Source of the DNA: Enterococcus sp. DIV0660C
GTDB lineage: Bacteria; Bacillota; Bacilli; Lactobacillales; Enterococcaceae
NCBI RefSeq assembly: GCF_017316125.1
Contig: NZ_JAFLWA010000038.1
Location: 1 to 64,000, forward strand
Reading direction: 5' to 3'
DNA length: 64,000 bases
The notes under the pieces are model-generated. The model was given only the letters and a program-made list of their open reading frames with translations. It did no database searches and was not told where the DNA came from. The translations under genes and the position numbers were made by a program. Shown one piece after another: positions 16,718 to 35,263 of the stretch (its first letter is position 1; the number at the start of each line of letters is the position of its first letter).

Positions 16718-16832
16718 TTTTTGTTCTAGACAAACATTTATAATCAATTATAAAGAAAAGGAAACCATAGTTGTCATGGGCTGTGGGGTTTGCTATTGTA
16801 GATGCAAGAAGAAAAACTAGGAGGAGCAGTCG

Positions 16833-31042: not shown

Positions 31043-31043
31043 A

Positions 31044-31097
31044 AAAAGAAATAACTCACCTCTTAGATGAATGAGAGGCGAGTTATTTCTTTTTTTA
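31044..31097 (+). terminator. DUF1831 gene terminator
   Basis: AAGAAATAACTC and GAGTTATTTCTT pair with an inner CCTCT/AGAGG stem and seven T residues. Confidence 0.92.
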
Positions 31098-31229: not shown

Positions 31230-31516
31230 TTGACTACTGGATACGCTATCAGTATTATAAGTGGCAGATAGAAACAGCCAAATAAAAAAGGCACCTCAGC
31301 AAATGGTGGCAGCCAAATGCTGAGGCCTTGAATCAGTCAACCAAACGGACCAATCAAGTTTGCCATAGTCAACGCAATGCATCGACCTCGTTCATTGTAA
31401 CGAATCTGGAAGTATAAATCTAGTTTTTTTAGAGAAATTTTCGAGGGAATGTATTCGTTTTATTTGCTATGTTGAAAGGTATTGGACTGATTGGTGTCCG
31501 ATGCCTTTTCTTTTGT
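31230..31516 (+). ncRNA. candidate small RNA region with own promoter and terminator
   Basis: TTGACT (31230-31235), a 17-base spacer and TATTAT (31253-31258) make a strong promoter. No convincing gene follows. A terminator-like hairpin AAAGGTATTGGAC / GTCCGATGCCTTT followed by TTCTTTTGT lies at 31476-31516, so a transcript of roughly 250 nt is predicted. The region is densely folded. It ends before the promoter of the CAT-domain gene. No match to a named RNA family is claimed. Confidence 0.45.
31284..31327 (-). terminator. minus-strand terminator-like hairpin
   Basis: On the minus strand, AAGGCCTCAGCA and TGCTGAGGTGCC form a stem with an inner TGG/CCA pair, then TTTTTT. It implies a leftward transcript ending here, opposite to the candidate small RNA. 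Confidence 0.6.
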
Positions 31517-31635: not shown

Positions 31636-31695
31636 CTGCGTATTAATTTACGAAGGCGCATTTCAATGTGGCTGTTTCTGTCATAAAAAGGAGGC

Positions 31696-31860
31696 ATGCA
31701 GGTGCAAGTGATTTTGATATTGAATCATAATGCAGTCGTTGCAAAATCGAAGAAAGGAGAGTGGGTGCTCATTAGACGAGAAATCGGATTTGGTAAGAAG
31801 ATCGGTGATATCGTCGAACCGAAGAATGTGGAATGTATGTACCAAAAAATATCAACATGA
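31696..31860 (+). CDS. stand-alone CAT-domain RNA-binding antiterminator, 54 aa
   Basis: A 54-residue protein whose whole length is a CAT (co-antiterminator) domain of the BglG/SacY/LicT family. Visible features: NHN near residues 10-12 (the NxN that contacts RNA in LicT/SacY), a central Gly-Glu turn (KKGEWVLIRR) and the strand-turn GFGKKIGD near residues 32-39. The usual two PRD domains are absent; the frame ends with TGA and no PRD-like frame follows. GGAGG lies two bases before the ATG at 31696, which is tight, so the GTG at 31702 is the alternative start. Its stop codon is 6 nt from a consensus RAT site, so it very likely antiterminates the downstream PTS operon. Without PRDs it cannot be controlled by PTS phosphorylation in the usual way. 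Confidence 0.85.
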   Translation: MQVQVILILNHNAVVAKSKKGEWVLIRREIGFGKKIGDIVEPKNVECMYQKIST

Positions 31861-31866
31861 AATCTA

Positions 31867-31933
31867 GGGGAGTTACTGTCTGGCAGGCTTGACCCATTCC
31901 AAAGTTTGGAGTGAGTCAGGTCTATTTTTTTTT
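31867..31933 (+). promoter_or_regulatory. RAT ribonucleic antiterminator overlapping a terminator
   Basis: 31867-31894 reads GG-x3-GTTACTG-x4-GCAGGC-x2-GACC, the conserved form of RAT sites recognised by BglG/SacY/LicT proteins. Its 3' GACC is shared with the left arm of a terminator: GACCCATTCCAAA pairs with TTTGGAGTGAGTC, then nine T residues (31925-31933). When CAT protein holds the RAT hairpin the terminator cannot form. Confidence 0.88.
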
Positions 31934-31947
31934 AGGAGGATGATTGG

Positions 31948-32409
31948 TTGGAAGCACTTGATATTCGGGAAATTATTCATAAAGACTTACTTGTTGTAGA
32001 TTCAAAAGCAACGACCAAAGGGCAGATTCTGAAAGAACTTGCTGATTTGCTAGAACGTAAAGGCTACGTAGCAAGTTCAGAAATCTTTTTAACAGATGTT
32101 TACCAGAGAGAAGCAGAGGGCACTACCGGTATTGGGCAGGGAATCGCGATACCTCATGGCAAATCAACTACTGTTAACCAAACTGTAATTATCATCGCTA
32201 CTTTAGCACAACCAATTCCTTGGGAAACACTTGATGCTCAAGATGTCAAAGTTGTTCTTTTATTTGCAGTAAAAGCGGAAGATGCCAATCTTAAACATCT
32301 GCGTTTATTACAAAAAATTGCCAGTTTGCTTGCAGATAATGAATTTATCAATGAATTAAAAGAAGTAGAAACAGTTGAAGCTTTATATCAATTAATGATT
32401 AACAAATAA
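31948..32409 (+). CDS. PTS fructose-family enzyme IIA
   Basis: A 153-residue IIA protein of the fructose/mannitol family with phosphorylatable His in GIGQGIAIPHGKS (about residue 69). It accepts phosphate from HPr and passes it to the IIB encoded downstream. The TTG start at 31948 follows AGGAGG by eight bases; the nearby ATG at 31940 is out of frame and closes quickly. First structural gene after the RAT/terminator. Confidence 0.9.
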   Translation: MEALDIREIIHKDLLVVDSKATTKGQILKELADLLERKGYVASSEIFLTDVYQREAEGTTGIGQGIAIPHGKSTTVNQTVIIIATLAQPIPWETLDAQDVKVVLLFAVKAEDANLKHLRLLQKIASLLADNEFINELKEVETVEALYQLMINK

Positions 32410-32427
32410 AAAGGAGTGTCGATCAAT

Positions 32428-33306
32428 ATGTTAGTAACAGGAAAAGAAATTTTAGCAGTGGCAAAAGAAAAAGGATTTGCAGTACCAGCATTCAATGCGG
32501 GCTCTGGTCAGTTGTTGAATGCAGTGATGGAAGCTTGTGAAGAAGCAAATGCACCTGTCATGATTGCGATTCACCCAGAGGAATTACGTTTTTTAACAGA
32601 TAGCTTTGTTTCACAAGTAAAATATCTAGCAGAAAAAGCAACGATTCCTGTTTGTATCCATCTGGATCACGGAGCTAGTTTTGAGCAGGTCATCCATGCA
32701 ATTCAATTAGGATTCACATCTGTAATGATTGATGCCTCCCATCATTCGTTTGAGGAAAATGTAGCGATTTCTCAAAAAGTTGTGGAAGCAGCACATGCAG
32801 TGGGCGTCTCAGTTGAAGCAGAATTAGGGACGATCGGTGATACAGGGAACACTGTTGAAGGTGGTGTTAGCGAAATCATTTATACAGATCCAAAAGTTGC
32901 ACAGAAATTTATTGAAGAAACAGGTGTAGATAGTTTAGCTGTGGCAATCGGAACAGCCCATGGAATTTATCCGAAAGATGTTGATCCAGAGTTACGTTTA
33001 GATATTTTAGAAGAGATTGAATATTTGACGGATGTACCATTGGTTTTACATGGTGGTTCAAGTAATCCGGATGATGAAATTGCAAAAGCTGTAGTTATGG
33101 GAGTCAATAAAATCAATATTTCTAGTGACATCAAAATTGTTTTCGCAGACAAACTACGTGAAATCTTAAATGAAGGAAATCTAGAAATTCGTGAACCAAA
33201 TGTTTTGTTCCCACCATGTATGGAAGCTACAAAAAAAGTTGTATTACAAAAAATCCACTTATTTAAAGCTGACAATAAAGCTAAATACTACACTATATCT
33301 AAATAG
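32428..33306 (+). CDS. class II ketose-bisphosphate aldolase
   Basis: A 292-residue zinc aldolase of the FbaA/GatY/KbaY family. HLDHGAS near residue 80 gives the catalytic Asp and first zinc His; YTDP, GTAHGIYP and LHGGSS supply zinc and phosphate-binding residues, and INISSDIKI the C-terminal phosphate loop. Cleaves fructose-, tagatose- or related ketose phosphates to DHAP plus an aldehyde. The start is the ATG at 32428; GTG at 32416 overlaps the AAGGAG site. Its place inside a PTS operon suggests a dedicated sugar, not glycolysis. Confidence 0.92.
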   Translation: MLVTGKEILAVAKEKGFAVPAFNAGSGQLLNAVMEACEEANAPVMIAIHPEELRFLTDSFVSQVKYLAEKATIPVCIHLDHGASFEQVIHAIQLGFTSVMIDASHHSFEENVAISQKVVEAAHAVGVSVEAELGTIGDTGNTVEGGVSEIIYTDPKVAQKFIEETGVDSLAVAIGTAHGIYPKDVDPELRLDILEEIEYLTDVPLVLHGGSSNPDDEIAKAVVMGVNKINISSDIKIVFADKLREILNEGNLEIREPNVLFPPCMEATKKVVLQKIHLFKADNKAKYYTISK

Positions 33307-33322: not shown

Positions 33323-33631
33323 ATGAAGATTGTTGGGATTGCTGCATGTACAGCGGGAATTGCGCACACTTATATTGCCCAAGAAAAATTACTCAAAGCT
33401 GCTAAGGAACGAGGTCATGAGATCCATGTGGAAACACAAGGATTGGCTGGGACGCAAGATGCCTTGCTAGCAAAAGATATCGAAGCTGCCGACATTGTAT
33501 TGATTGCTGCAGATATCAAGGTAAGCGGTCGTAGTCGTTTCACAGGAAAACGTATCGTTGATGTGCCTACAAGTTTAGTGGTCAAATCACCAAATAAACT
33601 GATAGAAAAACTAGAAGAGATGCTCAAATAA
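33323..33631 (+). CDS. PTS fructose-family enzyme IIB
   Basis: A 102-residue IIB protein starting MKIVGIAACTAGIAHTYIAQEKL; Cys9 is the phosphorylated residue in the CxxGxAHT motif of fructose-type IIB domains. It takes phosphate from IIA and gives it to sugar held by IIC. Confidence 0.93.
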   Translation: MKIVGIAACTAGIAHTYIAQEKLLKAAKERGHEIHVETQGLAGTQDALLAKDIEAADIVLIAADIKVSGRSRFTGKRIVDVPTSLVVKSPNKLIEKLEEMLK

Positions 33632-33647: not shown

Positions 33648-34745
33648 ATGGATAAAATCAAGACTTTAGGCATCAAAAAACATTTGATGACTGCAATTTC
33701 ATTCTTTTTACCAATCGTTGTTGCTTCAGGTTTTTTATTGGCAATTGGGAATATGTTAGATGGTGTTTCCATTGAAAATTTTTCCGAGGGCTTTGAATTT
33801 GCAGATACCTTGACCTCAATGGGGAATTATGGGTTAGGTTTGCTGCCAATGATTGTTGCTTGCGCAATTTCTTATTCTATTGCTGACAAACCGGGAATCG
33901 CCCCTGGTTTGATTATTGGGATGGTTGCAAAAGGAATTGGCGCTGGTTTTCTAGGAGGAATGCTTGGTGGATATGTCTCGGGAATCATCGTAGTACTTTT
34001 GACGGCGGGGATCAAAGTACCTAAATGGATGGAAGGGCTGATGCCAACGCTTGTTTTACCATTTCTTAGTTCATTGATTGCGGGTTTAGTGATGTACTAT
34101 GGGATTGGCACGCCGATCAATTGGTTTACGAATTTGATTACGAACTATTTGACTGGCTTAGATACTTCTTCACTTTTCTTATATGGTGCAGTAATTGGCG
34201 TGCTTTCTGCCATTGATTATGGCGGAGCAATCAATAAGGTCGTCTTTGCTTTTGTTTTTGCTTTATTCTCAGAAGGAATCTATGAACCAGTAACCGTTCT
34301 GATTTTAGCATCAATGGTAACTCCTTTTGGTTTGACGATGGCATTTTTCCTTGGAAAGATCATTCAAAAAGAAATTTTTAACCGTCAAGAAATCGAAACG
34401 TTAAAAACCGCTTTTCCGATGGGCATTTGTCAAATTACAGAAGGTTGTTTCCCTATTGTGTTGAATGATTTAGTCCGAAATGTTATTGCTACTGGTGTTG
34501 GTGGTGGAATCGGTGGCGGATTAAGTATGTTATGGGGAGCTGATAGCCATATTCCTGCTTCTGGGATGTTCGCTGTCGCTACGATGACTAGACCTTGGGC
34601 GTTCATAGGTGCATTAGTGATAGGTTCGTTTGCTACGGCTGTGACGATTTTGGTTTTGAAGAAACGTGTGGATCCAAATGCAGAAGTTATAGTAGTCGAA
34701 AAAGCAGAAGAAGAAATTTCTTGGGATGATCTGACAATCAATTGA
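33648..34745 (+). CDS. PTS fructose-family enzyme IIC
   Basis: A 365-residue permease with about nine to ten hydrophobic segments. KKHLMTAISFFLPIVVASGFLLAIGNM and the NPxG/IAPGLIIGMVAKGIGAGFLGGMLGGYVSGI motif regions are those of the fructose IIC domain (TIGR01427-type). AGGAGG precedes the ATG. Encoded separately from IIA and IIB, unlike the fused FruA of most Firmicutes. Confidence 0.92.
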   Translation: MDKIKTLGIKKHLMTAISFFLPIVVASGFLLAIGNMLDGVSIENFSEGFEFADTLTSMGNYGLGLLPMIVACAISYSIADKPGIAPGLIIGMVAKGIGAGFLGGMLGGYVSGIIVVLLTAGIKVPKWMEGLMPTLVLPFLSSLIAGLVMYYGIGTPINWFTNLITNYLTGLDTSSLFLYGAVIGVLSAIDYGGAINKVVFAFVFALFSEGIYEPVTVLILASMVTPFGLTMAFFLGKIIQKEIFNRQEIETLKTAFPMGICQITEGCFPIVLNDLVRNVIATGVGGGIGGGLSMLWGADSHIPASGMFAVATMTRPWAFIGALVIGSFATAVTILVLKKRVDPNAEVIVVEKAEEEISWDDLTIN

Positions 34746-34753
34746 GGAGAATA

Positions 34754-35263
34754 ATGATGGACTATCAAACAAAAGTAAAGCAACTTTTTTTGGATTCCGG
34801 AATGGTTTTTACAAATAAAGAGCTAGAAACAATTGAATTTGTTGACTTTGGCTTAGGTGCTATCGAAATTGAAGGACTAAACTTATTTGTATATGAAAAT
34901 AATGAGCGGTATTGTGGGAAAGAATTAGCTTTGTTACCTTATCAAACGTGTCCAGAGCATCGACATCCGCCGAGAAAAAATGATCTTGGTAAAAGAGAAA
35001 CTTTTCGGTGTCGGAAAGGAATCGTTTATTTATATGTCGAAGGAGACGGACCAGAAGTTCTATCATGCAAATTGCCTGAAAACAGTCAAGCAACTTATAC
35101 AGTAAGAAAAGAAATTGTTTTATACCCTGGTGATCAGTATACGATTGAGCCCAATATCAAACATTGGTTTCAAGCAGGTGAGACCGGGGCTGTAGTAACG
35201 GAATTTTCTTCTAGTAGCGATGATGCGAGTGATATTTTCACTAATCCGCTGATTCAACGGTAG
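34754..35263 (+). CDS. D-lyxose/D-mannose isomerase-like cupin
   Basis: A ~169-residue cupin with metal ligands of the D-lyxose isomerase family: His pair in CPEHRHPP, Glu in KRETFRC, and later His in IKHWFQAG. The family interconverts D-lyxose/D-xylulose and D-mannose/D-fructose. The IIC stop overlaps the in-frame TTG at 34742; ATG 34754 (or 34757) after GAGGAGA is the likely start. Last gene of the PTS operon; its substrate here is not known. Confidence 0.8.
   Translation: MMDYQTKVKQLFLDSGMVFTNKELETIEFVDFGLGAIEIEGLNLFVYENNERYCGKELALLPYQTCPEHRHPPRKNDLGKRETFRCRKGIVYLYVEGDGPEVLSCKLPENSQATYTVRKEIVLYPGDQYTIEPNIKHWFQAGETGAVVTEFSSSSDDASDIFTNPLIQR

Follow-up and report, generated by a model that had tools for sequence, protein, structure and literature searches.

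How is an antiterminator regulated when the whole protein consists of an RNA-binding domain? This question is raised by a locus in a 64,000-nucleotide stretch of DNA from Enterococcus sp. DIV0660C, called the window in what follows, to which all positions refer. A first-pass annotation had described a stand-alone CAT gene at this locus, placed directly in front of a RAT site and a fructose-type PTS operon. The model of CAT–PRD proteins and their RNA-binding CAT dimer is described in a review (PMC7430163) and a Streptococcus mutans paper (PMC1489936). That first annotation overlooked the upstream half of the module, which comprises a promoter-like site, a leader of about 225 nt, a terminator-like hairpin (T1) and a closing helix (P0). 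All features are collected in Table 1.

Table 1. Positions of the module and of the operon behind it in the window
Feature	Position	Strand	Remarks
Promoter-like site TTGACT-17-TATTAT	31230..31258	+	10/12 consensus bases; within the block conserved between species
P0 closing helix, 5' strand	31267..31283	+	pairs with 31666-31682
Leader RNA core	31285..31405	+	three-way junction P1-P3, then P4; conserved AUUGUA tail
Leader core helices	P1 31290-31293/31361-31364, P2 31294-31325, P3 31327-31358, P4 31368-31386	+	
Long-range helix, 5' strand CAUAG	31364..31368	+	just 3' of P1; pairs with 31467-31471
Long-range helix, 3' strand CUAUG	31467..31471	+	just before T1; complementarity test
Terminator-like hairpin T1, interrupted U-rich tail	31474..31513	+	hairpin 31474-31509
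P0 closing helix, 3' strand	31666..31682	+	ends 7 nt before the CAT Shine-Dalgarno
Shine-Dalgarno GGAGG of the CAT gene	31690..31694	+	7 nt before GTG 31702
Stand-alone CAT gene (probable start)	31702..31860	+	52 aa from GTG; 54 aa (54 codons) if from ATG 31696
Variant RAT (antiterminator hairpin)	31867..31895	+	core pattern, pairing, comparison with canonical RATs
Terminator T2 and T-run	31884..31933	+	overlaps 3' half of RAT; hairpin 31884-31924
PTS EIIA (PTS_EIIA_2), first operon gene behind T2	31948..32409	+	Pfam
Class II aldolase	32416..33306	+	Pfam
PTS EIIB	33323..33631	+	Pfam
PTS EIIC	33648..34745	+	Pfam
D-lyxose isomerase-like protein	34742..35263	+	Pfam

The open reading frame at 31696–31860 (plus strand) was confirmed to hold a complete CAT domain, with a score of 41.5 bits against a cut-off of 25 for the Pfam profile CAT_RBD (1.2e-10). 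The AlphaFold model of the monomer shows a confident CAT fold (mean pLDDT 94.3), and this fold, together with the score above the curated cut-off, places the protein in the CAT domain family PF03123. In a Foldseek search of the PDB, ranks 1–4 went to SacY, LicT (two entries) and GlcT (E 6.9e-4 to 1.4e-2), with TM-scores by query of 0.84 to 1auu and 0.86 to 1l1c; by fold, SacY alone of these four lies below E 0.001, and by sequence profile all four do. The first-pass annotation was also right that no PRD follows the CAT domain, as the frame ends at 31860 and the next gene is the PTS EIIA gene at 31948. Thus, the two PRDs that come after CAT in the BglG/SacY family are missing here. Two starts lie close together, ATG 31696 at 1 nt and GTG 31702 at 7 nt behind the GGAGG. 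Because the GGAGG is too near the ATG, and because the relatives ZJ1622 and L150 begin with ATG at the codon equivalent to GTG 31702, translation probably starts at this GTG and gives a product of 52 aa. A sixth CAT match, at window position 16749, was taken as spurious; it scores under the cut-off and contains an internal stop.

Is the short frame a truncated gene? A frameshifted full-length gene was a counter-explanation named in the first-pass annotation, and it proved very unlikely once short CAT-only proteins beside a RAT were sought among relatives: nine intact copies of near-equal length (50–53 aa) were found, and the truncation reading was rejected on these grounds. Eight genomes hold an intact leader-linked copy (G000, G001, G010, G012, G017, G018, G032 and G061), and the ninth copy is on contig OR846875 (L150), from wastewater and filed under a Listeria phage name. 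This contig, whose host field reads Listeria monocytogenes, holds an Enterococcus-like chromosomal locus, and its label looks wrong. A protein search gave the short CAT in 4 of the 15 genomes searched within the genus and in 8 of the 105 within the family. When 395 genomes of the order were searched with a profile, 63 had a CAT match at E ≤ 1e-8, and most of the matches listed are in frames of about 270–325 aa, like ordinary CAT–PRD proteins.

The nine copies form 36 pairs, 13 of which have saturated dS; of the 23 for which ω (Nei–Gojobori) is defined, 22 lie at 0.09–0.35. The exception is the window copy against its nearest relative MSG2901, from which it differs by four amino-acid changes and one silent change (ω 1.14). 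One of the four is a Glu at a position that is Gly in every other CAT of the 15 aligned, and since this Gly is so conserved, the window copy may be weakened. Both the Glu and the 4:1 ratio of changes would be expected of a degenerate remnant of a full-length antiterminator. However, nine intact copies and the low ω across genera are not, nor is the conservation of leader, RAT and T2, so that we consider decay an improbable account of the window copy; for the family, it is already unlikely. Judged from its sequences, the CAT-only protein is a natural, conserved and PRD-less protein that is encoded beside a RAT.

Behind the intact modules stand either a fructose-type PTS with an aldolase (genus g1; by Pfam for the window) or an EamA-family transporter (by Pfam for G061; by gene reading for genus g3). 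One further genome, G041, holds two more CAT copies (L071 and L072), both disrupted, one by an insertion and the other by a 28-bp tandem duplication. The insertion is presumably of IS66 type, judged from its ends. These copies precede fructose-type and mannose-type PTS genes (by gene reading), and their leader and RAT sites persist.

The RAT behind the CAT gene had been called a textbook site, which holds for one half of it. The core GTTACTG-N4-GCAGGC is exact at 31872–31888, whereas the lower half reads GGGGA...TTGACCC in place of the GGATT or GGGTT...AAAACC seen in the genome's two canonical RATs. Exact cores number three in this 2.6-Mb genome, against a chance expectation of about 0.08 (13 fixed bases, both strands), and the other two lie near a full-length CAT–PRD gene on contig C34. 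With up to two mismatches allowed, the pattern is not enriched (15 sites, vs. 17 for the reversed control). The reported overlap of RAT and terminator was confirmed, with bases 31884–31895 common to both, and the two hairpins are mutually exclusive. A RAT that overlaps an intrinsic terminator before a sugar operon is the BglG/SacY arrangement, here with a changed lower stem. All 9 pairs of the window RAT are possible (−5.5 kcal/mol), as are 17 of the 18 pairs of T2 (−22.4 kcal/mol); therefore, T2 should be the default structure and the RAT should require help.

An alignment of 11 sequences (10 distinct) has 98.9% of cells paired in the RAT and 95.6% in T2. Five pairs of T2 are changed on both sides, which none of 500 shuffles equalled. 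The RAT has one such change (A-U to G-C), equalled by 246 of 500 shuffles, and its covariation score was reached by 3 of 500. On the alignment columns, where it could not be scored, the T2 of G061 has 15 of 18 pairs; a simple terminator scan of the region left T2 unlisted. The fructose-type PTS operon behind RAT and T2 was corroborated by Pfam, which identified EIIA, aldolase, EIIB and EIIC genes.

The upstream block (promoter-like site, core of about 120 nt and T1) is conserved between genera. Promoter-like sites number 6 in 1.1 kb, compared with 4.0 ± 1.7 in shuffles. In an alignment of 52 leader cores, 88.1% of cells are paired vs. 72.7% when shuffled, 26 of 33 pairs have changes on both sides vs. 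20.8, and the covariation score is 0.455 vs. 0.189 for shuffled and 0.055–0.107 for slid alignments, the slid control being biased in favour of the structure because this was drawn from the same 52 sequences. Further pair types show no excess (57 vs. 56.9 shuffled, same sequences). The pair under the P2 loop is C.A in 30 of the 52, U.G in 21 and another in 1; C.A and U.G exchange isosterically.

Two further pairings tie the core to its surroundings. For the long-range helix, the complementarity within an element averages 5.27, compared with 4.64 ± 0.11 on permutation, and none of 20000 permutations reached this value; the test used 55 non-redundant of 68 usable elements among 76, whose kinship inflates the result, and 8 of the 76 were left out because their linker or T1 arm could not be recognised. 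A test reduced to one element for each of the 15 linker classes gave p = 0.0017. For P0, own pairing scores 30.2 vs. 24.75 ± 0.61 permuted (0 of 20000 as high) in 42 non-redundant of the 76 elements, with the same inflation by kinship and with the own partner best in only 7 of the 42 rows. T1 is conserved and partly compensated in 10 leaders. As in a riboswitch, the core of the leader is thus conserved and covarying and is linked to an expression platform, the link being given by complementarity statistics only.

With the covariance models of Rfam 15, no credible match was obtained over the leader in the window or in the scanned relatives; the best over the window core had 19 bits and E 0.87, on the minus strand. 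Matches to rli28 and rli117 sit beside the element, not on it, and these identities were rejected. We regard the leader as a candidate new RNA class. Further upstream, behind a DUF1831 gene, a long, nearly symmetric hairpin spans 31043–31094, possibly a bidirectional terminator isolating the module.

The leader is far more widespread than the CAT gene. At E ≤ 0.1, model R1 finds it in 61 of 105 Enterococcaceae genomes; the window's genome has two matches, and single genomes of genus g13 have as many as 26. Across the order, 66 of 395 genomes match at E ≤ 0.001. Among 398 genomes of the class, model R2 matches three at E ≤ 1e-4, and these all belong to the order. Most leader copies elsewhere have no CAT gene or recognised RAT downstream, so leader and CAT are separable. 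Forty leader loci, chosen from the matches listed and not randomly drawn, were fetched: in 21, a same-strand ORF of 70 aa or longer starts no further than 450 nt from the core, and the other 19 lack one, which suggests that the RNA has a different or a further role. Products behind leaders that were identified by Pfam include a SIS-domain protein, ABC sugar-type binding proteins, part of a transketolase, an EIIA and a LytTR response regulator, and an E. faecium plasmid has a leader copy in front of a sugar ABC operon. Small genes behind some leaders have no Pfam match; bacteriocin immunity was considered as their identity and dropped, as four tested products gave no Pfam match better than E 0.03.

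Several observations were made on these copies. In genus g13 (G070–G091; e.g., L112, L114, L131–L133 and L138–L140), leaders often stand in tandem pairs, and several precede small genes (about 70–120 aa) which have in common a stretch like YQDI...SWQEPL and lack a Pfam match. Copies without such a same-strand ORF of 70 aa or longer (e.g., L110, L111, L113, L115, L120 and L123, as well as L129, L130 and L134–L137) have the look of stand-alone small RNAs, and several have inverted, A/U-rich ends of type GATAGAAAC...GTTTCTATC. A diverged copy in another family of the order, f7 (L151 of G117), lies between apparent repeats of related gene fragments. An exact 23-mer of the leader is absent from the viral_contigs set, and nothing on a repeated RNA family was found in the passages searched of the E. 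faecalis and E. faecium RNA map (PMC7724050).

A second clade of stand-alone CATs was found in genus g17, with seven genes in six genomes, of about 53–62 aa depending on the start. Between the leaders and operons of g17 lies a RAT-like hairpin, GGGGAGTAAC-GTGA-GGCTTAACCC or close to it, with a terminator behind. Four of 105 genomes (G097, G098, G099 and G103) have a single copy of the variant GNAACGTGAGGCTTAACC (at most one mismatch). Each of these sites follows a leader and precedes an operon that includes PTS genes (EIIA of the L145 operon by Pfam, the others by gene reading), and a stand-alone CAT is present in all four genomes. G098 has a second leader and operon with this hairpin, here bearing a GAAA loop, and all five listed g17 leaders therefore precede the g17 RAT type. 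Two genomes, G096 and G104 (the latter 88% complete), have the CAT but lack both the RAT variant and any leader match. The second stand-alone CAT of G097 is followed after 85 nt by a RAT of g17 type, a terminator-like hairpin, and then a dehydrogenase-like gene and a mannose-type EIIA (gene reading), with Xre-like genes upstream; the sole leader match of this genome is on another contig. With this one exception, no nearby site fitting the RAT patterns was seen around those g17 CATs whose surroundings were read. A strict RAT scan of the fetched loci found RATs in CAT-module, g17 leader and CAT–PRD gene loci only; it misses diverged sites (L069, L179, L181 and L182).

The g17 genes bear on two other accounts of the short protein. 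In all nine intact leader-linked copies, the CAT stop codon lies 2–11 nt before the first RAT base, a distance at which a ribosome that ends translation could itself pick the hairpin, the peptide doing little. However, selection keeps the CAT residues and the fold, beyond the mere length, and the g17 CATs are on another contig than the RAT that they would serve, tens of kb from it or 85 nt away, which makes this account rather implausible. Better, though still unlikely in our judgement, is the proposal that full-length CAT–PRD antiterminators serve the RAT and that the CAT peptide is a competitor or modulator which blunts or biases their control: the genome has four full-length CAT–PRD frames, the window RAT shares its central core with the canonical RATs that lie beside one such gene, and RAT sites remain in G041 with both CAT genes broken. 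Against it, the lower stem of the window RAT departs from the canonical RATs of its genome in a way common to the g17 sites, suggesting a separate specificity. We infer from these comparisons that stand-alone CATs would act on the variant RAT type, in cis or in trans, for which g17 gives the best evidence: there, the same CAT type would work in trans on RATs behind leaders or, at one locus, on an adjacent leader-less RAT.

What, then, would control the CAT protein? Regulation by its amount or by another partner, instead of by PTS phosphorylation, had been suggested in the first-pass annotation. Control through PRDs of its own cannot apply because the protein is PRD-less. Amount is the better half of this suggestion, given the leader with T1 and the Xre-type genes of g17, whereas a PRD-only partner found no support. 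Such a split regulator, with the CAT and a separate PRD protein together giving PTS control, would draw on the control of CAT-containing dimers by PRDs in this family, as described in the accessible part of PMC7430163; but all 23 PRD matches of the genome are in frames of at least 277 aa, no small PRD-only gene is among them, and we give this alternative very little credence. In g17, CATs (L064, L066–L068 and L188) have small Xre-type HTH genes on one or both sides (Pfam HTH_26 and HTH_19 for the two tested at L068), hinting that DNA-binding proteins control the amount of CAT in this genus.

The reading that we favour, and hold to be probable, is a two-stage attenuator in which leader and T1 gate CAT synthesis, CAT opens T2, and the leader replaces PRD sensing. 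Transcription would begin near 31260 and first produce the structured leader ending in T1, which is conserved in structure and would be a regulated gate. Polymerases that pass T1 would transcribe the small CAT gene. Isolated CAT domains are constitutively active according to work on SacY and LicT, and the protein, being a CAT without PRDs, would bind RNA whenever it is made. It would then stabilise the overlapping variant RAT on later transcripts and prevent T2, so that the operon for the fructose-type PTS, the aldolase and the lyxose-isomerase-like protein would be expressed. Since the RAT is transcribed right after the CAT gene, CAT could hardly act on its own transcript unless polymerase pauses, and action on later transcripts would make the CAT level a delayed, threshold-like second gate. 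The leader, standing in for the PRD sensor, may thus be the sensor that controls CAT. Short of probable, and offered tentatively, is the wider reading that the leader represents a novel type of RNA sensor for a sugar-related or cell-state signal, common in Enterococcaceae and with relatives elsewhere in the order, that stand-alone CATs relay this signal to a second terminator, and that in g17 other regulators may use the CAT relay.

While similar to BglG, SacY, LicT and GlcT (CAT-PRD1-PRD2) in the CAT fold, the RAT overlapping a terminator and the PTS operon downstream, the window system differs in that it has no PRDs, a protein of 50–53 aa, a variant RAT, and a structured leader with its own terminator upstream. 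The CAT protein is a new variant of the BglG/SacY kind that lacks the PRDs of that family. The closest in length and fold, and among the best matches, are the CAT fragments of SacY and LicT (PDB 1auu and 1l1c, chains of 55 residues). These chains are pieces of longer proteins, whereas the window CAT is a conserved natural gene. The leader resembles transcription-attenuating riboswitches with an intrinsic terminator in its junction core, which is coupled to the terminator by long-range pairing. In contrast to these, it occurs in up to 26 copies per genome, 19 of 40 loci have no near same-strand ORF, its closing helix extends beyond the terminator, and it has no credible Rfam match. BglG/SacY-type antitermination is known in enterococci from the NagY–RAT system of E. 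faecalis, NagY being an antiterminator of this family (PMC9981650); the accessible part of that paper describes no stand-alone CAT, and the whole word CAT is absent from its main text. Among the literature matches listed (e.g., the best 20 of 467), mostly open-access, no title or abstract beginning describes a stand-alone CAT protein, and the same holds for the leader RNA among the matches listed for it.

The stand-alone gene indicates that an isolated CAT domain can be a natural regulator in its own right, and the RAT variants with a naturally changed lower stem provide material for studies of specificity. The module further brings to light a structured RNA family that has many copies and no credible match in Rfam. 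If the proposed mechanism is true, RNA would have taken over from protein as the sensor of this antiterminator family.
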